From an uncultured Tateyamaria sp. (lineage in GTDB: Bacteria; Pseudomonadota; Alphaproteobacteria; Rhodobacterales; Rhodobacteraceae), in the NCBI RefSeq assembly GCF_947503415.1, contig NZ_CANNDS010000001.1, positions 1,956,501 through 2,020,500 on the forward strand: DNA of 64,000 nt, given 5' to 3'. The notes under the pieces were generated by a model, which ran no database searches, was not told the DNA's origin, and saw nothing but the letters and a program-made list of their open reading frames with translations. Below, in pieces: positions 35,387 to 47,426 of the stretch (its first letter is position 1; each line of letters begins with the position of its first letter). A program made the translations under genes and the position numbers.

Positions 35387-35397
35387 ATGAGGTGCGC

Positions 35398-36159
35398 ATG
35401 CCGGATTTGTTGGTCGATGTGCAGGACAGGATCGCCGTTCTGACCCTGAACCGGGCCGAGAAGCGGAACGCCATGTCGGACGGGCTGCTGGCCGAGATTG
35501 ATGCGTTTTTCTCTGCCCCGCCCGAGGGGGTGCGGGTGGCGGTGATCACCGGTGACGGCGGGCATTATTGCGCGGGTCTGGACCTGAGTGAGCATGTGGC
35601 GCGGGATGCCGAAGGAACCTTGCACCATTCGCGTGGATGGCATGGCGTCATGGACAAGGTGCAGGGATCGGGCCTGCCGGTGGTGTCCGCCATGACCGGG
35701 GCTGTGATTGGCGGCGGGCTTGAGTTGGCCACGTCGACCCATGTGCGGATTGCCGAGCCTGATTGCATCTTTCAACTGCCCGAGGGGCGGCGGGGCATCT
35801 TTGTGGGCGGCGGGGCGACGGTGCGTGTGGGGCGCATTCTGGGGCCGGACCGTATGACCGAGATGATGCTGACCGGGCGGAAATATGGTACGGATGAGGC
35901 GGTGGCGTTGGGGCTGGCACATTACGCGGTTGGAACGGGGGAGGCTTTGCCCCGCGCGCTGGAGATTGCCGAACAGATTGCCGGGAACGCGCCGCTGTCG
36001 AATTACATGATGATCCAGGGGATTGCGCGGATTACGGATATGTCCCGGCAGGATGGGTTGTTTGTGGAGAGCATGGCGGCGGCCTTGGCCCAAACCTCGC
36101 CTGATGCGCATGAGGGGTTGGCGGCCTTTCTTGAGAAACGCGCCCCGAGGTTCCGGTGA
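35398..36159 (+). CDS. Enoyl-CoA hydratase/isomerase family protein (crotonase)
   Basis: This 253-residue crotonase opens LLVDVQDRIAVLTLNRAEKR and has the oxyanion-hole stretches GHYCAGLDLSEHV (about 55-67) and TGAVIGGGLELATST (about 99-113). A Glu in PEGRRGIFVGGG is in the catalytic position region. In this operon it could hydrate hydroxycinnamoyl-CoA thioesters, either as an Ech-type hydratase/aldolase or as a plain hydratase. ATG 35398 was preferred over GTG 35392 on ribosome-binding-site spacing. The stop overlaps the next gene start. Confidence 0.83.
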   Translation: MPDLLVDVQDRIAVLTLNRAEKRNAMSDGLLAEIDAFFSAPPEGVRVAVITGDGGHYCAGLDLSEHVARDAEGTLHHSRGWHGVMDKVQGSGLPVVSAMTGAVIGGGLELATSTHVRIAEPDCIFQLPEGRRGIFVGGGATVRVGRILGPDRMTEMMLTGRKYGTDEAVALGLAHYAVGTGEALPRALEIAEQIAGNAPLSNYMMIQGIARITDMSRQDGLFVESMAAALAQTSPDAHEGLAAFLEKRAPRFR

Positions 36160-36617
36160 TGGAGAAGCCCAAGGACAAGCCCGAGGTGGAGGTGTCGGAC
36201 GCGGCGCTGCGCGACCTTGTGGGCTACAACATGAAGCGGGCGTTCAACGTGGTGCAGGCCGATCTGGCGCGGACGCTGGAGCCGTTTGGCCTGCGGATGC
36301 TGACCTTTTCCGCGCTGTCGATGATTGTCGAGAACCCCGGGTTGCGGCCCAGCCAGTTGGCGGGGGCCTTGTCCGTCGAGCGGGCGAATGTGGTGGTTTA
36401 TGTGGACCAGTTGGAGGAGGCGGGTTGGGTCACGCGTGCGCCATCGGAAACGGATCGCCGGGCCTATGCGTTGCAGTGCACGCTGGCGGGGCGGCAGGTC
36501 TATGACAAGGCGCGGGCGGCGGTGCGGGCCCATGACCGGCGGATGCTGGATGGGTTGCGCGAGGTCGAGATTGCGGCGGTGAAGAAGGCGCTGATGCGCA
36601 TCGAGGGGCTGGGATGA
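36159..36617 (+). CDS. MarR-family regulator (CouR/FerR-like candidate)
   Basis: This 152-residue regulator has a winged helix-turn-helix in about residues 40-110: LTFSALSMIVENPGLRPSQL, VERANVVVYVDQLEEAGWV and the wing RAPSETDRRAYALQ. Its gene is embedded second in the crotonase/ligase/amidohydrolase operon, as is common for MarR repressors that respond to hydroxycinnamoyl-CoA. The likely operator is the palindrome at 35368-35386. The effector is inferred from gene company. Confidence 0.85.
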   Translation: MEKPKDKPEVEVSDAALRDLVGYNMKRAFNVVQADLARTLEPFGLRMLTFSALSMIVENPGLRPSQLAGALSVERANVVVYVDQLEEAGWVTRAPSETDRRAYALQCTLAGRQVYDKARAAVRAHDRRMLDGLREVEIAAVKKALMRIEGLG

Positions 36618-38386
36618 CCGACCATCTGGGCCTGCGTCCGCACAAGGTGGTGCGGGAGGATCGGCCGGATGGGTCGATTTTGCTGCGCTCGGGCTACGAG
36701 ATGTCGGCGGTGGATCTGTCGACGGGTGTTTGGCTGGATCGGTGGGCGACGCGGACGCCGGAGGCTGTGTTTCTGGCAGAGCGGTCTGGGGATGGCTGGC
36801 GTACGGTATCGTATGCCGAGGCGTTGCGCCGGGTGCGTGGGTTGGCGGCTGGGTTGCTGGCGCGGGGTCTGGACGGGCCGATCCTGATCCTGTCGGGCAA
36901 TTCGGTGGATCACGCCTTGCTGACATTGGCGGCGCAGTATGTGGGCTTAGTCACCGTCCCTGTGGCGGCGCAGTACAGTTTGATCCCGGAGGCGCGGGGG
37001 CGCCTGGACTACGTGCGCGAACTGGTGAAGCCTGCGCTAGTCTATGCGGCGGATGATGAGGCGTTTGGACCTGCGCTGGATCTGTTTGACTGTCCCAAGT
37101 TGGTGTCGCGTGTGGTGACTGGGCGTGCGTCTGCTTTGGACGGGGTGCGTGGGTCGGCGGATGTGGATGCGGCGCAGGCGGGCGTTGGGCCGGAGACCGT
37201 TGCCAAGCTGTTGCTGACGTCGGGGTCCACGTCTGATCCCAAGGCCGTGGTGACGACCCATGGCATGATGACCACCAATCAGGCGCAGATCCGCGATGGG
37301 TTGCCCTTTGTCGCGGCGCGTCCGCCGGTGCTGGTGGATTGGTTGCCGTGGAACCATGTGTTTGGCGGGTCACATAACTTCAATCTGGTGCTGGCCAATG
37401 GCGGGGCGCTCTATATCGACGATGGCGCGCCAATCCCCGCGAAGTTCGGGCGGACGGTTGAGAATTTGGGGCTGGTGCCCGGGACGATATCGTTCAACGT
37501 GCCGATTGGGTTTGCGCAATTGGTCGCGGCGATGGAGCAGGACGCGGCGCTGCGCGAGACGTATTTCCGCGACCTTGACATGATCTTTTATGCTGGCGCG
37601 TCGCTGCCGCAGGAGACGTGGACCGTACTAGAGCGTATGGCGCTGGAAGCGGCGGGGCGGATGCCGTTGATCACCTCAAGCTGGGGGCTGACCGAGACGG
37701 CGCCTGCGGCGCTGTTGCAGCATGTGCCGGCCAAGGGGGCGGGCATTGTCGGCGTGCCCATGACCGGTGTGACCGTGAAGCTGGTGGATGATGGCGCGGG
37801 CCGAATGGATGTGCGGGTGAAGGGGGATAATGTGTTCTCCGGGTATCATGACGCGCCTGAGAAAACAGCGGAAGCCTTTGATGATGAGGGGTTTTTCATC
37901 ACGGGCGATGCGATGCGCTTTGTTGATCCGGACGATATGGCCAAGGGGTTGCGCTTTGACGGGCGGTTGTCGGAGGACTTCAAGCTGAGCACAGGGACAT
38001 GGGTGCAGGCGGCGCAGATCCGGTTGGAGATGCTGGGTCTGTTGGGTCCGCTGGCGCAGGATGTTGTGATCTGTGGCGCGGGGCGCGACGAGGTCGGGAT
38101 GCTGATCGTGCCGGGGCCTGATGCGCGCGACGGAGATGGTGATGATGGAGCGCTGTTCTGCGCAGCATCAGAGGGCATACGTAAGAGTATGGTCAGGCGT
38201 GCTGGCGCTGTCACCGGGTCCGCCCGCGTTGTGGCGCGGGCGCTGGTTCTGGCCGACCCACCCGACATTGGGGCGGGGGAAGTGACCGCCAAGGGCAACA
38301 TCAATTTCGCCAAGCTGCTTGAGCGTCGGGCCCATCTGGTGGACCGGCTTTATGACGACAATGATCCTGCGAGTATTGTTCTATGA
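36614..38386 (+). CDS. Feruloyl-CoA synthase-like acyl-CoA ligase
   Basis: This 590-residue AMP-forming ligase has the P-loop LLLTSGSTSDPKAVVTTH (about 198-215), the motif SSWGLTETAPAALL (about 355-368) and, late, GDAMRFVDPDDMAKGLRFDG. The length and the C-terminal domain resemble feruloyl/p-coumaroyl-CoA synthases rather than short-chain ligases. It would activate a hydroxycinnamic acid to its CoA ester. Start and stop codons overlap those of both neighbours (ATGA), so translation is coupled through the operon. Confidence 0.82.
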   Translation: MTDHLGLRPHKVVREDRPDGSILLRSGYEMSAVDLSTGVWLDRWATRTPEAVFLAERSGDGWRTVSYAEALRRVRGLAAGLLARGLDGPILILSGNSVDHALLTLAAQYVGLVTVPVAAQYSLIPEARGRLDYVRELVKPALVYAADDEAFGPALDLFDCPKLVSRVVTGRASALDGVRGSADVDAAQAGVGPETVAKLLLTSGSTSDPKAVVTTHGMMTTNQAQIRDGLPFVAARPPVLVDWLPWNHVFGGSHNFNLVLANGGALYIDDGAPIPAKFGRTVENLGLVPGTISFNVPIGFAQLVAAMEQDAALRETYFRDLDMIFYAGASLPQETWTVLERMALEAAGRMPLITSSWGLTETAPAALLQHVPAKGAGIVGVPMTGVTVKLVDDGAGRMDVRVKGDNVFSGYHDAPEKTAEAFDDEGFFITGDAMRFVDPDDMAKGLRFDGRLSEDFKLSTGTWVQAAQIRLEMLGLLGPLAQDVVICGAGRDEVGMLIVPGPDARDGDGDDGALFCAASEGIRKSMVRRAGAVTGSARVVARALVLADPPDIGAGEVTAKGNINFAKLLERRAHLVDRLYDDNDPASIVL

Positions 38387-39255
38387 TTGATCTGGAAAAG
38401 ATCCGCGCCATCGACATTCACACCCACGCGGAGGAGCCGTGCGGGTGTCATGCGGATGATGGCTATGACGATTTGCAATCGACTATGGCGGAGTATTTCC
38501 GCGCGCCGTGGAAACATCCACCGACCGTGCCCGAGACCGCTGCGCATTACCGGGCGCAGAACATTGCCGCCGTGATTTTTCCCGTCGATGCGGAGCGGGA
38601 GACGGGCTATCGCCGCTATGCCAATGAGGAAGTGGCGGAGATTGCGGCGGAGAACAGCGATGTGTTGATCCCCTTTGCCAGTATCGATCCGTGGAAGGGC
38701 AAGATGGGCGTGCGCGAGGCGAAGCGGCTGATGCGCGAGTTCGGCATCAAGGGCTTCAAGTTCCACCCGACCATGCAGGGGTTTTTTGCGAACGACCGCA
38801 TGGCCTATGACCTTTATCGCGCGATCGAGGACGAGGGGGGCATTGCGCTGTTTCACACCGGGCAGACCGGGGTTGGGTCGGGGATGAAGGGTGGCAACGG
38901 GATGCGCCTGAAATATTCGAACCCGATGTATATGGACGATGTGGCGGTGGATTTTCCGGACCTCAAGATCATTCTGGCGCATCCCAGCTTTCCCTGGCAG
39001 GAGGAGGCGCTGGCCGTCGCGCAGCACAAGCCGAATGTCTACATCGACCTGTCCGGTTGGTCGCCGAAATATTTCCCGCCGATCCTTGTGCGCTACTGCA
39101 ATTCGATCCTGCGCAAGAAGATGCTGTTCGGGTCGGACTGGCCGATGATCGCGCCGGAGCGGTGGCTCAAGGATTTCGAGGGGATCGACATCAAGGACGA
39201 GGTGCGGCCCGGTATCCTGAAGGACAACGCAGCGCGGCTGCTCGGGTTGCAGTAA
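38383..39255 (+). CDS. Metal-dependent amidohydrolase-family hydrolase (CouO-like candidate)
   Basis: This 290-residue amidohydrolase-2 family protein has metal motifs DIHTHAEEP (HxH near residues 13-15), KGFKFHPTMQGF (about 124-135), ILAHPSFPW (about 197-205) and FGSDWPM with the late Asp (about 249-255). In Rhodococcus a member of this family, CouO, hydrolyses 4-hydroxyphenyl-beta-ketoacyl-CoA to 4-hydroxybenzoate and acetyl-CoA. Gene order with ligase, crotonase and MarR supports a similar step here. Other amidohydrolase-2 reactions, such as decarboxylation, remain possible. Confidence 0.72.
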   Translation: MIDLEKIRAIDIHTHAEEPCGCHADDGYDDLQSTMAEYFRAPWKHPPTVPETAAHYRAQNIAAVIFPVDAERETGYRRYANEEVAEIAAENSDVLIPFASIDPWKGKMGVREAKRLMREFGIKGFKFHPTMQGFFANDRMAYDLYRAIEDEGGIALFHTGQTGVGSGMKGGNGMRLKYSNPMYMDDVAVDFPDLKIILAHPSFPWQEEALAVAQHKPNVYIDLSGWSPKYFPPILVRYCNSILRKKMLFGSDWPMIAPERWLKDFEGIDIKDEVRPGILKDNAARLLGLQ

Positions 39256-39341
39256 ATTGCGCATGAGCGGCGCGCTGGTTGCGGCAGGCTGACGCAGGTT
39301 GCACGATAAAGCATCATCATGGACCTTTGGGAGGAGGGCAC

Positions 39342-40868
39342 ATGGCAAACGCGGCATCCTATTTCGTGGACCGGCATGTGGCCGAGGGGCGGGGCGACAA
39401 GGTCGCCTTTCGCGAGGTCGGCACGGGGCGTGAGCTGACCTATGGCGCGCTTGCCGCCGGGTCTGGACTGGCCGCGGCGGCCTATCACGCGGCGGATGTG
39501 CGGCGCGAGGAACGGGTGGCGATGCTGGTTTTGGACCAGATCGAGTTTCCGATCCTGTTCTGGGGTGCGCTGAAGGCGGGTGTGGTGCCGGTGCCGTTGA
39601 ACACGCTGTTGGCGACACCGGTTTACGACACCATTTTGAGGGACAGCCGTGCGACAATGCTGATGGTGTCGGAGGCGCTGTGGGATGTTGTGGCGCCCGT
39701 GCTGGCGGACAATCCGTACCTGCGGCACGTCGTGGTGATTGGCGCTGCGCGGGAGGGGGCGGAGACGTATGACGCGTTCATGGCCCGCGCGGAGGCGGCG
39801 ATTGAGCCGTTTGAGGCCAAGGACGATGAGACGGCGTTCTGGCTCTATTCCTCGGGCTCGACCGGGCAGCCGAAGGGGGTGCATCACATCCATTCCGCGT
39901 TGAAGGCGACGGCGGACACTTACGGCGCGCAAGTGTTGCAGGTGCGTGAGGATGATGTGGTGTTTTCCGCCGCCAAGTTCTTTTTCGCCTATGGCTTGGG
40001 CAATTCGATGACCTTTCCGATGTCCGTTGGCGCGACCGTGGTGATCTTTGGCGGCCGGCCAACGCCCGATGGGATGGTTCAGGTGATTGCAGACGAACAG
40101 CCCACTGTGTTCTGCGGGGTGCCCACGCTTTATGCCGCGATGGTGGCGCATATGGAGGCGGAGGGCGCGCCGGATGCGCCTTTGCGCACGTGCATTTCCG
40201 CTGGGGAGGCGTTGCCCGAAGATGTGGGCGTGCGGTGGGAGCGGCTGACCGGTGTGCCGATCCTGGATGGCGTCGGGTCGACCGAGATGTTGCATATCTT
40301 TTTGTCGAACGCGCCGGGGGATGTGGTCTATGGCACGTCCGGCGTGCCTGTGCCCGGCTATGACGTGCGGCTGGTGGACGAGCATGGCGTTGATGTAGGC
40401 GTCGGTGCGGTGGGCGAGTTGCTGGTCAATGGGGCCTCTGCTGCGGATGGGTATTGGAACCGGCGGGACAAAACGCGCGGTACATTCGAGGGCGTATGGA
40501 CGCGGACCGGAGACAAGTATGAGCGTCGGGACGACGGGCGGTATGTCTACTGCGGGCGGACCGATGACATGTTCAAGGTGTCCGGCATCTGGGTCAGCCC
40601 GTTCGAGGTGGAGCAGGCGATCACGTCTCATGCCTCGGTTCTGGAATGCGCTGTGGTGGCGATGCGGGATGAGGATGGATTGGAAAAGCCCAAGGCCTTT
40701 GTCGTGCCGCATGGCGCGCGGCCAGAGGGGTTGGAAGAGATGCTGAAAGAGCATGTGAAGGACCGCGTGGGCAAGTGGAAATATCCCCGCTGGGTCGAGT
40801 GTGTGGACAGCCTGCCGAAGACGGCGACGGGCAAGATCCAACGCTTCAAGCTGCGGGAGGGTGTGTGA
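39342..40868 (+). CDS. Benzoate-CoA ligase family protein
   Basis: This 508-residue AMP-forming ligase shows SSGSTGQPKGVHHIHSALKA (about 172-191), FFFAYGLGNSMTFPMSVGAT, typical of the benzoate/4-hydroxybenzoate branch, and the C-terminal KTATGKIQRFKLR with the catalytic Lys. It would start the box pathway by forming benzoyl-CoA; 4-hydroxybenzoate is an alternative substrate. A perfect GGGAGGAGGG ribosome-binding site precedes ATG 39342. The longer frame upstream is not supported. The 86-base gap upstream holds a TGCACGATAA motif that recurs in part before boxC. Confidence 0.88.
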   Translation: MANAASYFVDRHVAEGRGDKVAFREVGTGRELTYGALAAGSGLAAAAYHAADVRREERVAMLVLDQIEFPILFWGALKAGVVPVPLNTLLATPVYDTILRDSRATMLMVSEALWDVVAPVLADNPYLRHVVVIGAAREGAETYDAFMARAEAAIEPFEAKDDETAFWLYSSGSTGQPKGVHHIHSALKATADTYGAQVLQVREDDVVFSAAKFFFAYGLGNSMTFPMSVGATVVIFGGRPTPDGMVQVIADEQPTVFCGVPTLYAAMVAHMEAEGAPDAPLRTCISAGEALPEDVGVRWERLTGVPILDGVGSTEMLHIFLSNAPGDVVYGTSGVPVPGYDVRLVDEHGVDVGVGAVGELLVNGASAADGYWNRRDKTRGTFEGVWTRTGDKYERRDDGRYVYCGRTDDMFKVSGIWVSPFEVEQAITSHASVLECAVVAMRDEDGLEKPKAFVVPHGARPEGLEEMLKEHVKDRVGKWKYPRWVECVDSLPKTATGKIQRFKLREGV

Positions 40869-41677
40869 TGGAATGGGGTGTGGGCACGGTTTCGGTTGCG
40901 GGGCAGACTCTGGAATATGCGTGCTGGGGGCCTGCGCCAGGCGATGCGCCGACGCTGGTGATGCTGCATGAGGGTCTCGGGTCCGTTGGCCTGTGGCGCG
41001 ACTGGCCGGAGGCGTTGGCGAAGGCGACAGGCATGGGGGTGCTGGCCTATTCGCGGGCGGGCTATGGCCGGTCGTCTGCTGCGTCTTTGCCAAGGCCGCT
41101 CGATTACATGACGCGCGAAGCGGAGGATGTTTTGGGGCCTGTTCTGGATGCCGCCGGTATCGAACATGCCGTGTTGTTGGGCCATTCTGACGGGGCGACG
41201 ATTGCGGCGATCTATGCCGGGTCGGTGTCGGATATGCGGGTGCGCGGGTTGATCCTGATTGCGCCGCATTTCTTTGCCGAGCCGGAGGGGCTGGAGGCCA
41301 TTCGTGCGGCGAAAGGGGCGTATGAGGGCGGCGATTTGAAGCCGCGTTTGGCGCGGCACCACGATCACCCGGATGTGGCGTTTTACGGCTGGCATGACGC
41401 GTGGACTGATCCGGGATTTGCCGATTGGAATGTGGGTGACGCGATTGATCACTGGCGCATTCCGGCGATGGTTGTTCAGGGGGCAGAGGACCCGTATGGC
41501 ACGCTGGCGCAGGTGCGCGAGGTCGAGGACCGCGCCTATGCTCCGGTGGAGGCGTTGATTGTGGATGGGGCCGGGCACAGCCCACATCAGGGTGTGCCCG
41601 AGATCGTGACGCCCGCCGTTGCCGCGTTTTGCGAGACGTTGATGGCGTTGGAAGATGCGCCCTCGGAAGTGTACTAA
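40868..41677 (+). CDS. Alpha/beta hydrolase in the benzoate cluster
   Basis: This 269-residue protein has LHEGLGSVGLWRDWPEALA (oxyanion side, about 34-52) and the nucleophile elbow GHSDGATIAA (about 103-112). The acid lies in QGAEDPYGT and the His in GAGHSPHQG (about 238-246). It overlaps the ligase stop by one base (TGATG). It may cleave an ester or thioester of an aromatic acid or open a ring-cleavage product. Similar hydrolases accompany box genes in other bacteria, but the exact step is not established here. Confidence 0.72.
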   Translation: MEWGVGTVSVAGQTLEYACWGPAPGDAPTLVMLHEGLGSVGLWRDWPEALAKATGMGVLAYSRAGYGRSSAASLPRPLDYMTREAEDVLGPVLDAAGIEHAVLLGHSDGATIAAIYAGSVSDMRVRGLILIAPHFFAEPEGLEAIRAAKGAYEGGDLKPRLARHHDHPDVAFYGWHDAWTDPGFADWNVGDAIDHWRIPAMVVQGAEDPYGTLAQVREVEDRAYAPVEALIVDGAGHSPHQGVPEIVTPAVAAFCETLMALEDAPSEVY

Positions 41678-41776: not shown

Positions 41777-43435
41777 ATGACCCAGATCATCGACTTTCGT
41801 ACTGATCCAAGCCGCTACAGGCATTGGCGTGTGGATTATGACGGGCCGGTGGCGACGCTGTGGATGGATGTGGACGAGGATGGCGGGCTGTTTGACGGCT
41901 ATCAGTTGAAGCTGAATTCCTACGATCTGGGCGTTGATATCGAGTTGAACGATGTGGTCCAGCGGATGCGGTTCGAGCATCCGGAGGTGAAGGTGGTTGT
42001 CATGCGCTCGGCCAAGGACCGGGTGTTTTGTGCAGGGGCCAATATCCGGATGCTTGGTGGGGCTGCGCATTCGCACAAGGTCAACTTCTGCAAGTTCACG
42101 AATGAAACGCGCAATGCCTATGAGGCGGCGGAGGCCGAGAGTGGGCAGAAATATGTGGCGGCTATTCAAGGGGCCTGTGCGGGCGGTGGGTATGAGCTGG
42201 CGCTGGCGTGCAATCACATCATGCTGACGGATGACTCGACGTCTTCGGTGGCGTTGCCGGAAGTGCCTTTGCTGGCCGTGTTGCCGGGAACAGGTGGCCT
42301 GACGCGTGTGACCGACAAGCGGATGGTGCGGCGGGACCGGGCGGACGTGTTCTGTTCGACCGAAGAGGGTGTGAAGGGCAAGCGCGCCGTGCAGTGGAAG
42401 CTAGTGGACGAGGCTGTACCGAATGCCCGCTTTGATGACGTCGTCGCGGAGCGTGCGGCGGAGTTTGCGGATGTGTCTGCCAAGGCGGATGTCGCGCAGA
42501 GGATTGCGCTGGGGCTGATTGAGCGGACGATTTCTGACGATGGGTCAGTGTCTTACGGGCTGGTTGAAGTGACCGTGGACCGTGACGCGCGCCGGGCGGA
42601 GATTTTGATCAAAGGACCTGAGAACGACGCGCCTGCGGATGTGGAGGCGTTGGTGGAGGCGGGGGATCAAGCCTACATCCTGCGGCTGGCGCGTGAGTTG
42701 GAAGATGCGGTTTTGCATCTGCGTCTGAATGAGATGGAAGCCGGGCTTTGGGTGATCCGGTCACAGGGCGATCCGGAGGCTGTGCTGGCCCACGAGGCGC
42801 TGGTTCTGGAGAACCCGGATCACTGGCTGTGCAACGAAATCCGGCACTATTGGAAGCGGGTGTTGAAGCGAGTTGATGTGACCTCGCGCTCGCTTGTGGC
42901 TTTGGTGGAGCATGGCAGTTGTTTTGCAGGTGTGCTGGCGGAGCTGCTGTGGGCCGTGGACAGGTCCTACATGATGGAAGATGAGTTCGAAGGGGACAAT
43001 CGGCCCTTGGCCACCATCATGCTGAGCGACGGGAATTTCGGGGCCTATCCGATGGGCAATGACCTGACGCGGTTGCAGACGCGTTTTTATGGGTCCGATG
43101 ATGCTGAGGGGCTGCTCGATCAGATTGGTGAGGCGTTGGAGGCTGAGGAGGCGGATGACGCGGGGCTTGTGACCGAGATCCTGGATGACATCGATTGGGA
43201 GGATGAGATCCGCATCTTCCTTGAGGAGCGGGCGAGCTTCTCCCCCGATGCGATGACGGGGATGGAAGCGAACCTGCGCTTTGCGGGGCCCGAGACGATG
43301 GAGACGCGCATTTTTGGCCGTCTCACGGCGTGGCAGAACTGGATTTTCAACCGGCCCAATGCGGTTGGAGAGGATGGCGCATTGCAGCGGTACGGCACCG
43401 GTGTGCGTGGTGATTTCAATATGGAACGTGTGTAA
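41777..43435 (+). CDS. boxC: 2,3-epoxybenzoyl-CoA dihydrolase (benzoyl-CoA-dihydrodiol lyase)
   Basis: This 552-residue, extra-long crotonase-fold enzyme matches BoxC. The N-terminal half has VVMRSAKDRVFCAGANIRML (about 75-94) and AIQGACAGGGYELALACNHI (about 133-152), the oxyanion-hole strands. The C-terminal half has SRSLVALVEHGSCFAGVLAE. BoxC opens the ring of 2,3-epoxybenzoyl-CoA and releases formate. It is followed by boxB after a 53-base hairpin-containing gap. The pairing with boxB and boxR leaves little doubt. Confidence 0.94.
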   Translation: MTQIIDFRTDPSRYRHWRVDYDGPVATLWMDVDEDGGLFDGYQLKLNSYDLGVDIELNDVVQRMRFEHPEVKVVVMRSAKDRVFCAGANIRMLGGAAHSHKVNFCKFTNETRNAYEAAEAESGQKYVAAIQGACAGGGYELALACNHIMLTDDSTSSVALPEVPLLAVLPGTGGLTRVTDKRMVRRDRADVFCSTEEGVKGKRAVQWKLVDEAVPNARFDDVVAERAAEFADVSAKADVAQRIALGLIERTISDDGSVSYGLVEVTVDRDARRAEILIKGPENDAPADVEALVEAGDQAYILRLARELEDAVLHLRLNEMEAGLWVIRSQGDPEAVLAHEALVLENPDHWLCNEIRHYWKRVLKRVDVTSRSLVALVEHGSCFAGVLAELLWAVDRSYMMEDEFEGDNRPLATIMLSDGNFGAYPMGNDLTRLQTRFYGSDDAEGLLDQIGEALEAEEADDAGLVTEILDDIDWEDEIRIFLEERASFSPDAMTGMEANLRFAGPETMETRIFGRLTAWQNWIFNRPNAVGEDGALQRYGTGVRGDFNMERV

Positions 43436-43488: not shown

Positions 43489-44937
43489 ATGACTGTGATG
43501 AACGTCAGCTATGACACCCAAATCCCCAACAATGTGGGGCTGAGCCAGGACCGCAAGGTGCTGAAAGCGCTGGAGAAATGGCACCCCGGGTATATCAACT
43601 GGTGGAATGACCTAATCCCGCAGAACTTTCAGGAGAGCATGGTTTACCTGCGCACTGCCGTCAGTGTGGACCCCAAGGGATGGGCGAAGTTCGACTATGT
43701 GAAGATGCCGGAATATCGGTGGGGCGTGTTGCTGGCCCCGGCCGTTGAGGATCGCCGCATTCCGATGGGCGAACATAAGGGAGATCTGGCGTGGCAGGAG
43801 GTGCCGGGTGAGTATCGTAACATGCTCAAGCGCCTTATCGTGATCCAGGGCGATACCGAACCGGGATCGGTTGAACAGCAGAAGTTCCTCGGCCTGACCG
43901 CGCCGTCACTGTACGACATGCGGAACCTTTTTCAGGTGAATGTCGAAGAAGGGCGGCACCTGTGGGCGATGGTGTACTTGCTGCAGAAGTACTTCGGCAA
44001 GGATGGGCGCGAGGAAGCGGACGACATGCTGGTGCGGTCCTCGGGTTCGGAAGAGGCACCGCGGATGCTGGGGGCCTTCAATGAGGAGACGCCGGATTGG
44101 CTGTCTTTCTTCATGTTCACCTATTTCACCGACCGTGACGGGAAGATGCAGCTTGAGTCATTGGCGCAGTCGGGCTTTGACCCGCTGTCGCGCACGTGTC
44201 GCTTCATGCTGACCGAAGAAGCGCACCATATGTTCGTGGGTGAGACGGGCGTGACCCGGACCATTCAGGCGACCTTGGCCGCGATGCAGGAGAACGGGAT
44301 CGACGACCCTTATGACATCGGCAAAATCCGCGATCTGGGGGTCATCGACCTGCCGACGATCCAGAAGAAGCTGAACCTGCACTATACGCTGAGCCTTGAT
44401 CTGTTTGGGCAGGAGGTCAGCACCAATGCCGCCAACGCCTTCAACGCAGGCATCAAGGGCCGGTATATGGAGCAGCGGATTGACGACGATCACAAGCTGA
44501 CAGGCGACACCTATGCGGTGGCGAGCATCGTGGACGGCAAGATCGTGACACAGGATGTGCCCGCGTTGACGGCCATCAACATGCGCTTGCGCGATGATTA
44601 TGTGCGCGATGCCTCAGGTGGTTTGCGCCGCTGGAACAAGCAGATTTCGCGCACGGGGATTCAGTTTGAACTGAAGCTGCCGCATGAGGGGTTCCATCGG
44701 AAGATCGGGGTGTTCAAGGACCAGCCGATCACACCGGATGGGGAGTTCATTTCGCAGGCGGATTGGGATGCGCGCCAGACTGAATGGCTGCCGACGAAGG
44801 AAGATGGTGCCTTTATCCAGTCGTTGATGAAACCGTGCTACGAGCCCGGCAAATACGCCAGCTGGATCGCCCCGCCCAAGGTCGGGATCGACAACAAGCC
44901 GGGTGATTTTGAATATGTGAAACTGCACATGGCCTGA
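43489..44937 (+). CDS. boxB: Benzoyl-CoA 2,3-epoxidase, oxygenase subunit
   Basis: This 482-residue diiron oxygenase subunit adds one oxygen to benzoyl-CoA. Two ligand motifs are visible, EEGRH at residues 153-157 and EEAHH at 243-247, matching the ExxH pairs of the BoxB diiron centre. The full length agrees with the family. A GAGAGGAGATG ribosome-binding site precedes ATG 43489. The next two genes encode a Cys-rich microprotein and a flavodoxin instead of the usual BoxA reductase. Confidence 0.95.
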   Translation: MTVMNVSYDTQIPNNVGLSQDRKVLKALEKWHPGYINWWNDLIPQNFQESMVYLRTAVSVDPKGWAKFDYVKMPEYRWGVLLAPAVEDRRIPMGEHKGDLAWQEVPGEYRNMLKRLIVIQGDTEPGSVEQQKFLGLTAPSLYDMRNLFQVNVEEGRHLWAMVYLLQKYFGKDGREEADDMLVRSSGSEEAPRMLGAFNEETPDWLSFFMFTYFTDRDGKMQLESLAQSGFDPLSRTCRFMLTEEAHHMFVGETGVTRTIQATLAAMQENGIDDPYDIGKIRDLGVIDLPTIQKKLNLHYTLSLDLFGQEVSTNAANAFNAGIKGRYMEQRIDDDHKLTGDTYAVASIVDGKIVTQDVPALTAINMRLRDDYVRDASGGLRRWNKQISRTGIQFELKLPHEGFHRKIGVFKDQPITPDGEFISQADWDARQTEWLPTKEDGAFIQSLMKPCYEPGKYASWIAPPKVGIDNKPGDFEYVKLHMA

Positions 44938-44948
44938 GGGAGGCATCC

Positions 44949-45122
44949 ATGCAGATCGAAAGAACAGCCCTGACTGACGCCGCATCAAAGCGCCCCTTTT
45001 GCGCTTTGGAGTGTGATGGATGTACCGGAATGTGCCTCGCGCTCTACATGATGCTGAACCGGGACGAACAGGACGAGATGTGCCGCCGGTACAAAGCACG
45101 CACCGCACCACGCGTGCATTGA
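44949..45122 (+). CDS. 57-residue cysteine-rich protein between boxB and the flavodoxin
   Basis: This ATG frame has a good ribosome-binding site (GGGAGG, 44938-44943) and lies 11 bases after the boxB stop. The TGA stop at 45120-45122 lies 7 bases before the flavodoxin ATG. The product has five Cys: C18-x3-C22-x2-C25-x3-C29 and C45, within a short acidic/basic protein (core CALECDGCTGMC). Such spacing can bind zinc or an iron-sulfur cluster. I do not recognise a named family. Its position suggests a role in electron transfer or metal supply to BoxB. Confidence 0.65.
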   Translation: MQIERTALTDAASKRPFCALECDGCTGMCLALYMMLNRDEQDEMCRRYKARTAPRVH

Positions 45123-45129
45123 GGAGAAT

Positions 45130-45594
45130 ATGATGAAAGTTGGCATTTTTTACGGGTCCGAGACCGGCAATTCCGAGATGCTGTGCGAGGACATCGAGAC
45201 GGAGCTTGGTGATGGGTTCGAGTGCGATATCCAGAGCCTTGCGGATGTTGATCCGGCAGAGATGCAGAAGGACACATTCTACATCATTGTGACGTCGACC
45301 TATGGCAATGGCGATTTGCCTTCGACCGCGTTGCCGTTCGAAGAGGCGCTGACCGAAGGCAAGCCGGACCTCAAAGGCATCCGCTTTGCCATCTTTGGTC
45401 TGGGCGACATGGTGTTTGCCGAGACCTTCGCGCACGGGTCCATGAAGCTGGCCGAGATGATGAAGGCGCAAGGGGCAACCCAAGTGGGCGAGCGGGGCAT
45501 CCACGATGCGTCGGGCTTTGATATGCCCGAGGACATTGCCCTGCCGTGGGTGCAGGAGATCATGGGGCTGATGCAGGCGGACAAGGCCGCTTGA
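45130..45594 (+). CDS. Flavodoxin (MioC-like) in the box operon
   Basis: This 154-residue flavodoxin has the FMN phosphate loop GSETGNSE (residues 9-16), VTSTYGNGDLPST for the 50s/60s loop (about 56-68) and the FGLGD loop near residue 91. It is longer than E. coli MioC but of the same general type. It sits directly behind boxB and the Cys-rich protein, where an electron donor would be placed. The reductase that would reduce it is not in the window. ATG 45133 is an alternative start. Confidence 0.85.
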   Translation: MMKVGIFYGSETGNSEMLCEDIETELGDGFECDIQSLADVDPAEMQKDTFYIIVTSTYGNGDLPSTALPFEEALTEGKPDLKGIRFAIFGLGDMVFAETFAHGSMKLAEMMKAQGATQVGERGIHDASGFDMPEDIALPWVQEIMGLMQADKAA

Positions 45595-46013
45595 GCGACA
45601 AGTTTCGACATGAAATCCGGGTGACGTGGGGCGATTGCGACCCGGCCAAGATCGCCTATACCGCCCGTTTGCCGTGGTTTGCGCTGGATGCCATCAACGC
45701 GTGGTGGGAAGCGCATTTGGGCGGCGACGGATGGTATCAGCTGGAACTCGATCGCAATATTGGCACGCCCTTCGTTCATATGAGCATGGACTTTCGGTCA
45801 CCTGTGACGCCCTGCCATCGCCTGATCTGCGAGGTGTGGCCGAAACGGCTGGGCGACAAGTCCATCACTTTCCGCGTGGATGGGCGGCAGGATGGGATGC
45901 TGTGCTTTGAGGGGACATTCACTTGCGTCTTCATCATTGCCGACCAGTTCAAGAGCCAATCCGCACCCCCCGAACTGCGCGCCGTCATCGCGCCGCACAT
46001 CTGCGACATTTGA
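45591..46013 (+). CDS. 4-hydroxybenzoyl-CoA thioesterase-like hotdog protein
   Basis: This 140-residue hotdog-fold thioesterase has the motif WGDCDPAKIAY at about residues 13-23, with Asp17 in the catalytic position described for the Pseudomonas CBS3 enzyme. It probably hydrolyses aromatic CoA esters to free trapped CoA. The likely start is TTG 45591, which overlaps the flavodoxin stop (TTGA); the frame is open further upstream but that part is the flavodoxin shadow. Confidence 0.82.
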   Translation: MSDKFRHEIRVTWGDCDPAKIAYTARLPWFALDAINAWWEAHLGGDGWYQLELDRNIGTPFVHMSMDFRSPVTPCHRLICEVWPKRLGDKSITFRVDGRQDGMLCFEGTFTCVFIIADQFKSQSAPPELRAVIAPHICDI

Positions 46014-46071
46014 TCCGTTGAACCGGGGCGCTCGCGTCCTAAAACAACTGATAAGAAGAAGCTAAGTGCGC

Positions 46072-46962
46072 ATGACATCACCGAAACCCATACCAGACGG
46101 CGCAATCCCGATGATTGCACGCCTTGCCACCCGCGTCCGGGCCGCCCGCGAAGCGCTGGGCCTGCCGCGCCGCGAATTGTCGGAACGCTCGGGCGTGTCG
46201 CCGCGATATCTTGCGCAGCTTGAGGCGGGTGAGGGGAACATCTCTGTCATCTTGCTGGAGCGCGTGGCTACGGCGCTGAATGTCCGGATCGAGGAGTTGC
46301 TGTCCGAAAGCCCACCGATGGACGGCGATGTGACCCGCGTGGCGCGGCTGTATCAAGCGGCCCCTGCACAGGTACAGGGACGCGTGCGGGCACTGCTGGC
46401 CCCGCAGAACCCCGTGGCGCTCCGGGCGCAGCGCATTTGCCTTGTCGGATTGCGCGGTGCGGGCAAGTCCACACTGGGCCGACTGGCCGCGGACAAGCTG
46501 AAAATCCCCTTTGTCGAGTTGAACGGAGAGATCGAGGCCGAGGCGGGCATGCCTTTGTCCGAGGTCATGGCCCTGTACGGGCAGGACGGCTATCGCGCAT
46601 TGGAGGCGGAAGCCGTGTCGCGCATCGTGTCGCGCCACGACAAGCTGATCCTGGCTGTTGCGGGCGGGATCGTGACGGATGAGGCCGCTTACGACATGGT
46701 GCTCGAACGCTTCCATACGATTTGGGTCCGTACCAGTCCGGGTGAACATATGGCCCGCGTTCGCGCGCAGGGTGACTTGCGTCCGATGGAAGGCAATCCT
46801 GCTGCCATGGATCAGTTGAAGTCGCTTCTGGCGACCCGAGCCCCGGCCTATGAACGGTCTATGGCGCAGGTGGATACATCAACGAAGCCTGTGTCCACAT
46901 CGGTAAACGAATTGCTGGCCATCATCGCAAAACACCGCTTTCTCGAGGGGCTTGGTCCTTGA
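46072..46962 (+). CDS. boxR: Benzoyl-CoA-responsive repressor BoxR/BzdR
   Basis: This 296-residue protein fuses an N-terminal HTH-3 DNA-binding domain (about 15-75, with SERSGVSPRYLAQLEAGEGN) to a shikimate-kinase-like domain with Walker A GLRGAGKST near residues 126-134. In BzdR/BoxR this kinase-like domain senses benzoyl-CoA without catalysis. It closes the box operon and should repress it until benzoyl-CoA accumulates. ATG 46072 and GTG 46066 are both possible starts. Its stop overlaps the next gene start (TTGA). Confidence 0.93.
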   Translation: MTSPKPIPDGAIPMIARLATRVRAAREALGLPRRELSERSGVSPRYLAQLEAGEGNISVILLERVATALNVRIEELLSESPPMDGDVTRVARLYQAAPAQVQGRVRALLAPQNPVALRAQRICLVGLRGAGKSTLGRLAADKLKIPFVELNGEIEAEAGMPLSEVMALYGQDGYRALEAEAVSRIVSRHDKLILAVAGGIVTDEAAYDMVLERFHTIWVRTSPGEHMARVRAQGDLRPMEGNPAAMDQLKSLLATRAPAYERSMAQVDTSTKPVSTSVNELLAIIAKHRFLEGLGP

Positions 46963-47426
46963 CCATCCGCGTGGCGCCTTTGCAAACCGCATTCTGGCGC
47001 GCATGCGAGCGACTGTTGTACGTGCACACAACCCCGTGGGAGCTGGACGAGGCGCTGGTTGCTTGGGGCTATGGGATTGGCCCGTGCGAAGCGCAGGATC
47101 TGGTCGGATTGGATACGGTACTTGCCGCGCGGAGTGGCGGTGACGTCTCACCGATTTTGCCGCGCATGGTGGCTGAGGGGCGGTTGGGCAAGCGCTATGG
47201 TTGGGGATATTACCGGTATCCCGGCGGCGGTGGTGCGGTGATCGACCCGCTGATCGAGGATCTGATTTGCGAAGAGGCGTGGTTTGCCAAGGTTAAACGG
47301 CAAGAGTTGAGCGCCGAGGCTTTGGTCGCCCGTCTGCACGAGGATGTGCGCCAATTGTTGCAATCAGATGTTGAGGCCGCGGTGCGTTTGCTGCACTTCC
47401 CTGCCGATCAGATGGCCGCGATCTAG
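46959..47426 (+). CDS. Orphan C-terminal domain of 3-hydroxyacyl-CoA dehydrogenase
   Basis: This 155-residue protein aligns by eye only with the all-helical C-terminal (3HCDH) domain: TTPWELDEALVAWGYGIGPC (about 24-43), EAQDLVGLDTVLAAR and RMVAEGRLGKRYGWGYYRYP (about 69-88). The NAD-binding Rossmann domain is missing, and the upstream frame is boxR. TTG 46959 overlaps the boxR stop, so it is translated with boxR. Catalysis alone is unlikely. It may bind a CoA ester or partner with another dehydrogenase. The stop shares CTAG with the convergent gene. Confidence 0.7.
   Translation: MTIRVAPLQTAFWRACERLLYVHTTPWELDEALVAWGYGIGPCEAQDLVGLDTVLAARSGGDVSPILPRMVAEGRLGKRYGWGYYRYPGGGGAVIDPLIEDLICEEAWFAKVKRQELSAEALVARLHEDVRQLLQSDVEAAVRLLHFPADQMAAI

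Follow-up and report, generated by a model that had tools for sequence, protein, structure and literature searches.

The aerobic benzoyl-CoA degradation (box) operon encoded in the window analyzed here, a 64,000-nucleotide stretch from an uncultured Tateyamaria sp., raises the question of how its epoxidase, BoxB, is reduced. In this pathway the role of reductase is assigned to BoxA, a protein with two 4Fe-4S clusters that is specific for NADPH and FAD (PMC4498308); the mechanism proposed for BoxB begins with its reduction by BoxA and NADPH (PMC5489048). The operon in the window has BoxB, BoxC, BoxR, benzoate-CoA ligase, and diiron positions in common with the BoxA/BoxB epoxidase system of the Aromatoleum/Azoarcus evansii type, but where that system has BoxA, it has a flavodoxin (positions 45130-45594). 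The comparisons below suggest that this flavodoxin probably replaces BoxA as the electron donor of BoxB, which would give a known pathway a different electron carrier.

The operon runs benzoate-CoA ligase, alpha/beta hydrolase, boxC, boxB, a Cys-rich open reading frame (ORF) encoding 57 aa, flavodoxin, thioesterase, and boxR (Table 1). The order from boxC onward, given in a preliminary description of the locus, was recovered with family models, the Cys-rich ORF alone matching none. The tight spacing and good ribosome-binding sites claimed behind boxB were also found: 11 nt separate the boxB stop codon from the ATG of the Cys-rich ORF and 7 nt separate the stop codon of that ORF from the flavodoxin ATG, and both gaps carry purine-rich ribosome-binding sites (GGGAGG and GGAGA, respectively), placing the flavodoxin 192 nt downstream of boxB. 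The likeliest start codon of the thioesterase, TTG 45591, overlaps the stop codon of the flavodoxin (TTGA). These short gaps with their ribosome-binding sites, together with the overlap, indicate a tight operon. BoxB, BoxC, BoxR, and benzoate-CoA ligase all exceed curated cut-offs within this one cluster. BoxB matches the BoxB structure PDB 3per (E 5e-203), and its closest relatives are from Tateyamaria (Roseobacteraceae). Residues E124, E154, H157, D215, E244, and H247, which we take to be the diiron ligands from the A. evansii numbering (offset by 4), are invariant among the rows with a letter there in a 145-row alignment.

The absence of BoxA noted for the window extends to the whole source genome (G000; 4.87 Mb in 18 contigs), where the BoxA model TIGR03224 gives one match, a ferredoxin-like piece of 22 bits against a cut-off of 459. 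Shared domains produce low scores (13 of 14 control genomes give such a match, and none of the 14 passes the cut-off); for this reason, BoxA was counted only above it. On the whole-genome score, a BoxA hidden in the genome was ruled out. It is extremely unlikely that BoxA is present but was missed through an assembly gap or strong divergence: the assembly is in several contigs and a very divergent reductase could score low, but genome completeness is estimated at 100%, the score lies far from the cut-off, 33 of the 37 boxB genomes of the family exceed that cut-off in the same search, and 22 more loci with the flavodoxin in this position (L003-L026 minus L021 and L024) hold no BoxA in flanks of ~6 kb. 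A decaying, incomplete operon without function is also very unlikely. One paper classes some BoxA-less box clusters as incomplete and suggests an impediment (PMC10803450). Against decay, BoxB and BoxC of the window score far above their curated cut-offs, BoxB keeps its diiron positions, and the arrangement ligase, hydrolase, boxC, boxB, and flavodoxin (the Cys-rich gene and thioesterase may be present or absent) is conserved in records of Tateyamaria, Roseicyclus, Pacificoceanicola, and Rhizobiaceae.

Among 149 Rhodobacteraceae genomes, boxB was found in 37 (TIGR03225), with BoxA over its cut-off in 33. In 32 of these, boxA lies on the same contig and strand at most 400 bp behind boxB; in the other (G080) it is on another contig. 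The boxB genomes without BoxA are the source genome, G056, G102, and G139. An orthologous flavodoxin stands directly behind boxB in G056 and G139, with a Cys-rich ORF in between in the latter, and no flavodoxin was found in genome G102, where the boxB match stops no more than 4 bases short of the contig end. Within 15 kb of boxB on its contig, the 33 boxA-bearing genomes show no match to the flavodoxin domain model PF00258; in one (G062), a match of 50 bits in a 249-aa frame lies ~20 kb away. A box-linked flavodoxin was present in 3/4 genomes without BoxA vs. 0/33 with it (Fisher p 5e-4), and the flavodoxin sits in the slot that boxA fills in these relatives.

A contig scan with the window flavodoxin returned 47 loci. 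At 55-92% identity stood 24 of them (L003-L026), from Tateyamaria, Roseicyclus, Pacificoceanicola, other Rhodobacterales, and two metagenome-assembled genomes of the Rhizobiaceae group; the flavodoxin is directly behind boxB in 23 of the 24, and the fetched flanks (~6 kb) contain no BoxA. By this count and that of the family, linkage of the flavodoxin to boxB is conserved in boxA-less relatives. This is one of the two sequence checks on which the preliminary description had staked its proposal; the other, absence of BoxA from the whole genome, also came out in its favor. Five distant matches (L027-L031, 30-35% identity) adjoin box genes, two of them in records from Alphaproteobacteria and three in records from Acidobacteriota; L028 has ligase and hydrolase only, and L031 has boxC, boxR, and ligase with no boxB on the stretch. 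No BoxB or BoxC was found in the remaining 18 loci.

In a survey of 337 Alphaproteobacteria genomes, boxB exceeded its cut-off in 64, two of which belong to the Rhodobacteraceae set (matches below the cut-off, in G459 and G474, were left out). The other 62 comprise 11 with BoxA over cut-off, one (G378) with BoxA cut by a contig end, and 50 without BoxA. A flavodoxin was scored as linked if it lay on the boxB contig within ~15 kb or directly beside boxR on another contig. Such a flavodoxin occurs in 21 of the 50 genomes without BoxA (G149, G155, G175, G192, G213, G227, G230, G241, G253, G255, G331, G332, G334, G338, G350, G424, G426, G428, G435, G442, and G454) and in none of the 12 bearing BoxA. 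The gene lies beside boxR, separated from boxB at contig breaks, in G155, G192, and G454. Among the 12 with BoxA, G212 carries a box-type flavodoxin on a short contig of its own, and G218 has a PF00258 match (43 bits, 209 aa) 6.7 kb from boxB that was missed by tblastn with both box flavodoxins. Over all Alphaproteobacteria surveyed, a box-linked flavodoxin is found in 24/54 boxB genomes without boxA vs. 0/45 with it (Fisher p 3e-8, ignoring shared descent); L208, a copy of L074, was left out of these counts. At the level of loci, tblastn found a box flavodoxin in 0/46 boxA loci, 27 of which (family loci within L050-L078) extend only ~1.5 kb beyond boxB, and BoxA in 0/40 flavodoxin loci. The idea that absence of boxA is a rare event was rejected, as absence is common outside Rhodobacteraceae.

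No PF00258 match other than the flavodoxin occurs in the source genome at E<=0.001. Its best solved match is cindoxin (4oxx, E 3e-26), with MioC next. MioC is also its best NCBIfam model (88 bits, cut-off 158); the FldA subfamily model gives 79 bits (cut-off 175), and the protein falls below the cut-offs of all 19 NCBIfam models listed. It shares a domain family with MioC, FldA, and CysJ and differs from them in these scores and in its linkage to boxB. Residues G9, T12, S56, G59, G61, L91, G92, and D93 are invariant in 20 sequences and presumably belong to the FMN loops; the protein is predicted to bind FMN. In the P450cin chain, electrons pass from NADPH through cindoxin reductase and cindoxin to P450cin (PMC9687028). 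Like that chain from NADPH through reductase and flavodoxin to oxygenase, the window has a flavodoxin gene adjoining an oxygenase gene. The acceptor in the cindoxin system is a P450, whereas that proposed here is a diiron epoxidase, and the cindoxin-type chain has a dedicated reductase, whereas the window operon has no NADPH reductase gene. The general ferredoxin/flavodoxin-NADP reductase postulated as a feeder in the preliminary description is nevertheless encoded in the genome, as an FPR on contig C4 whose best solved match is the ferredoxin-NADP(H) reductase 2bgi/2vnh (E 5e-120), which we take to be the Rhodobacter capsulatus enzyme. In the proposed route, NADPH would reduce this housekeeping FPR, FPR would reduce the FMN of the flavodoxin, and the flavodoxin would hand electrons one at a time, two in all, to the BoxB diiron site. 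Reduced BoxB would then activate O2 and epoxidize benzoyl-CoA, and BoxC would open the epoxide as usual. Both the route and the acceptance of flavodoxin electrons by BoxB are predictions made from sequence.

The association of box genes with flavodoxins is broader than the preliminary description held, extending to other Alphaproteobacteria and three Acidobacteriota records and in some cases including FprA. In these, a flavodoxin of the distant type stands divergent to boxR wherever both are on the stretch. An FprA-like NADPH reductase gene occurs behind boxB in 7 of 15 divergent-flavodoxin loci, either directly (L027, L152, and L158), at 0.3 kb (L029), or at 0.6-2.1 kb (L121, L138, and L153); the protein from L152 matches adrenodoxin reductase (E 5e-69) and FprA (E 7.5e-55). 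With one FprA query, and with L050-L078 reaching ~1.5 kb beyond boxB, no such gene was found in 130 other boxB loci (46 with boxA, 53 with neither, 25 with the in-slot flavodoxin, 4 with a far flavodoxin, and 2 with another reductase); the 25 in-slot loci are thus among those without it. In the flavodoxin tree, the in-slot sequences and L021 form one supported group, next to which are two Rhodobacteraceae flavodoxins (from G044 and G092), followed by the divergent type; the branch joining the in-slot and outgroup flavodoxins with the divergent ones has support 93/69, without a star. Both outgroup flavodoxins (L229:4225-5918 and L230:8238-8696) adjoin an FprA-like gene, which would count in favor of a donor role. 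At L229 (G044) the start and stop codons of the flavodoxin and FprA-like genes overlap, and a Rieske oxygenase is encoded ~8 kb off. Two further loci (L231:7045-14771 and L232:7658-14482) hold a phenylacetate-type cluster with a divergently transcribed flavodoxin and one short PaaA/PaaC-like diiron protein; in L231, PaaI, 3-oxoadipyl-CoA thiolase, and PaaK exceed their cut-offs and the PaaA model gives 78 bits (cut-off 280). These clusters possibly represent a second CoA-ester epoxidase served by a flavodoxin.

The BoxB tree contains two large groups, one with the in-slot flavodoxin loci nested among boxA loci and the other with the divergent-flavodoxin loci. For the in-slot label, the 70-row tree requires 6 changes (5-6 on the best trees and 3-6 in bootstrap, with 0% of 200 replicates needing one). 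Repeated replacement of BoxA by the same flavodoxin would account for this, as would transfer of a boxB-flavodoxin cassette from one lineage to another. The BoxB tree omits L024 and L079 (copies of L112), L069 (a copy of L114), L076 (which is the window), L167 and L168 (divergent second copies of boxB), and the boxA-centered loci L080-L109; L021, L028, and L031 have no boxB and do not appear. Where a stop codon fell inside the BoxB match, the longest stop-free piece was used.

Several results weigh against a donor role for the flavodoxin. No box-linked flavodoxin was found in 30 of the 54 boxA-less alphaproteobacterial boxB genomes, a few of them because of contig ends. Linkage is loose in 4 of the 24 genomes scored as linked (G149, G253, G334, and G428, 8-15 kb from boxB), and in G241 and G255 the flavodoxin is beside boxR in a separate locus, on a contig other than that of boxB. 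Two BoxA-bearing genomes carry a box-type flavodoxin at a distance from boxB (G344, ~66 kb; G437, other contig), and L021:6001-6429 encodes an orthologue of the in-slot flavodoxin in a stretch where box genes are absent out to 6 kb. Identity between the in-slot and divergent flavodoxins is only ~30%, and a single clade of the 25 in-slot rows is not rejected on the BoxB tree (approximately unbiased test, p 0.21). An independent-pairs test found 4 supported pairs, too few to reach significance, with the expected direction in 2.3 on average and the opposite never. The survey of Acidobacteriota adds to these points: boxB exceeded its cut-off in 39/247 genomes, and BoxA did so in none of 41 (38 from the survey and three reached via L029-L031). 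Among the 38, which were not chosen by flavodoxin, 36 have no PF00258 match and 2 have an unlinked one; 20 of these 38 non-seed boxB loci were fetched (L174-L193) and hold boxB/boxC clusters with neither BoxA nor flavodoxin. Given boxB without BoxA or a linked flavodoxin, BoxB evidently can work with unlinked donors, or the Acidobacteriota homologues have another partner.

These clusters also fit a rival account, which is unlikely though not negligible, in which BoxB receives its electrons from another reductase of the cell (for example PaaE, from the phenylacetate pathway, or FPR together with a ferredoxin), leaving the flavodoxin as a bystander or in the service of another operon step. PaaE is a 2Fe-2S flavoprotein reductase, and the source genome encodes a PaaE-like protein (PF00175 match C1:1140527, locus L170; named by reading the sequence). 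The phenylacetyl-CoA epoxidase PaaABCE and BoxB are alike in epoxidizing a CoA thioester with a separate reductase; PaaABCE uses PaaE, a reductase of another kind, whereas the window has a single-subunit BoxB with a flavodoxin. BoxB is a structural homologue of PaaA (PMC4498308). Also in line with the rival, in G341 and G434 the boxA slot, immediately after boxB, is filled by a PaaE/BenC-like 2Fe-2S flavoprotein reductase (L142:8552-9514, by family models, and L157:5815-6837, 88% identical, by tblastn). The G341 reductase, however, is only 24% identical to the PaaE-like protein of the source genome and is therefore a separate enzyme. Reduction by another enzyme of the cell would also leave unexplained a flavodoxin that occupies the boxA slot and was never found there together with boxA, as well as an FprA gene in 7 of the 15 divergent loci and in no others. 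To look for a linked donor in clusters with neither BoxA nor flavodoxin, 78 loci were scanned for motifs of the 4Fe-4S, plant-type 2Fe-2S, and Rieske kinds; right behind boxB and on its strand, these yielded only the L142/L157 reductase and the BoxA of L150. Ferredoxin-like ORFs also follow boxB in L189 (at ~2-3 kb) and L190 (at 6 kb), and in L132 a Cys-rich ORF of 88 aa adjoins boxB on the opposite strand.

With the flavodoxin as the preferred donor in the window, a wider generalization seems plausible on balance: BoxA would be dispensable in the box pathway, and the donor of BoxB would be a modular slot taken in different lineages by unrelated proteins (BoxA, a cindoxin-like flavodoxin with FPR or its own FprA, or a PaaE/BenC-like 2Fe-2S reductase); the flavodoxin form would operate in two phyla and possibly at a PaaA-like epoxidase as well. 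The preliminary proposal of a flavodoxin-fed BoxB as an electron-transfer variant is favored by the absence of BoxA and the linkage; against it, boxA-less clusters are common and many have no linked flavodoxin. If the proposal is true, many Alphaproteobacteria can have working box clusters that lack boxA, boxA serves poorly as a marker of aerobic benzoyl-CoA degradation, and the flavodoxin-using oxygenases come to include a diiron epoxidase. The exchange of donors within one slot makes the reductase needs of BoxB directly testable with few proteins. Among papers on benzoyl-CoA, none linking BoxB with a flavodoxin was found in the literature covered, which excluded most subscription journals, so that an earlier report in print is possible; the portions available of two papers (PMC9873259 and PMC11309472) contain nothing on the BoxB donor.

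The Cys-rich microprotein is a real gene. A database search returned 20 proteins of 54-61 aa at E<=1e-3, and an alignment of 21 sequences (19 of the 20, the window, and L024) shows no variation at C18, C22, C25, or C29. Of the 25 in-slot loci, tblastn detected the gene in 13; in the 12 without it, 10-56 nt lie between boxB and the flavodoxin. A role as a necessary part of the donor chain was rejected on this count. Of the two genes that the preliminary description had associated with loss of boxA, the flavodoxin alone holds up. A metal-binding accessory role for the microprotein would be a guess.

Table 1. Genes of the box operon in the window, with supporting matches
Feature	Position	Strand	Evidence
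Benzoate-CoA ligase	39336..40868	+	TIGR02262 727 bits, cut-off 375 (scored from 39279)
Alpha/beta hydrolase	40871..41677	+	PF00561 66 bits; adjoins ligase in many box clusters
boxC, 2,3-epoxybenzoyl-CoA dihydrolase	41777..43435	+	TIGR03222 949 bits, cut-off 712
boxB, diiron benzoyl-CoA 2,3-epoxidase	43489..44937	+	TIGR03225 896 bits, cut-off 499
Cys-rich microprotein, 57 aa, CX3CX2CX3C, putative accessory	44949..45122	+	No Pfam or NCBIfam match
Flavodoxin in boxA slot	45130..45594 (start 45130 or 45133)	+	PF00258 88 bits, cut-off 25
4HBT-type thioesterase	45591..46013	+	PF13279 43 bits
boxR, HTH + shikimate-kinase-like regulator	46066..46962	+	NF006015 353 bits, cut-off 204

The ligase ORF is listed from TTG 39279, and ATG 39336 is the likelier start. 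At the other end of the operon, a short protein with a 3HCDH C-terminal domain (46959-47426) overlaps the end of boxR and is also found behind boxR in Tateyamaria loci. Just upstream, at 35392-39255, an enoyl-CoA-hydratase-like ORF, a MarR regulator (Saro_0803 model, 75 bits, cut-off 200), a PRK12582-like acyl-CoA synthetase (587 bits, cut-off 777), and an amidohydrolase-like ORF follow one another in tight order, the hydratase and amidohydrolase being named from reading the sequence only. This group is perhaps a hydroxycinnamate side-chain operon.

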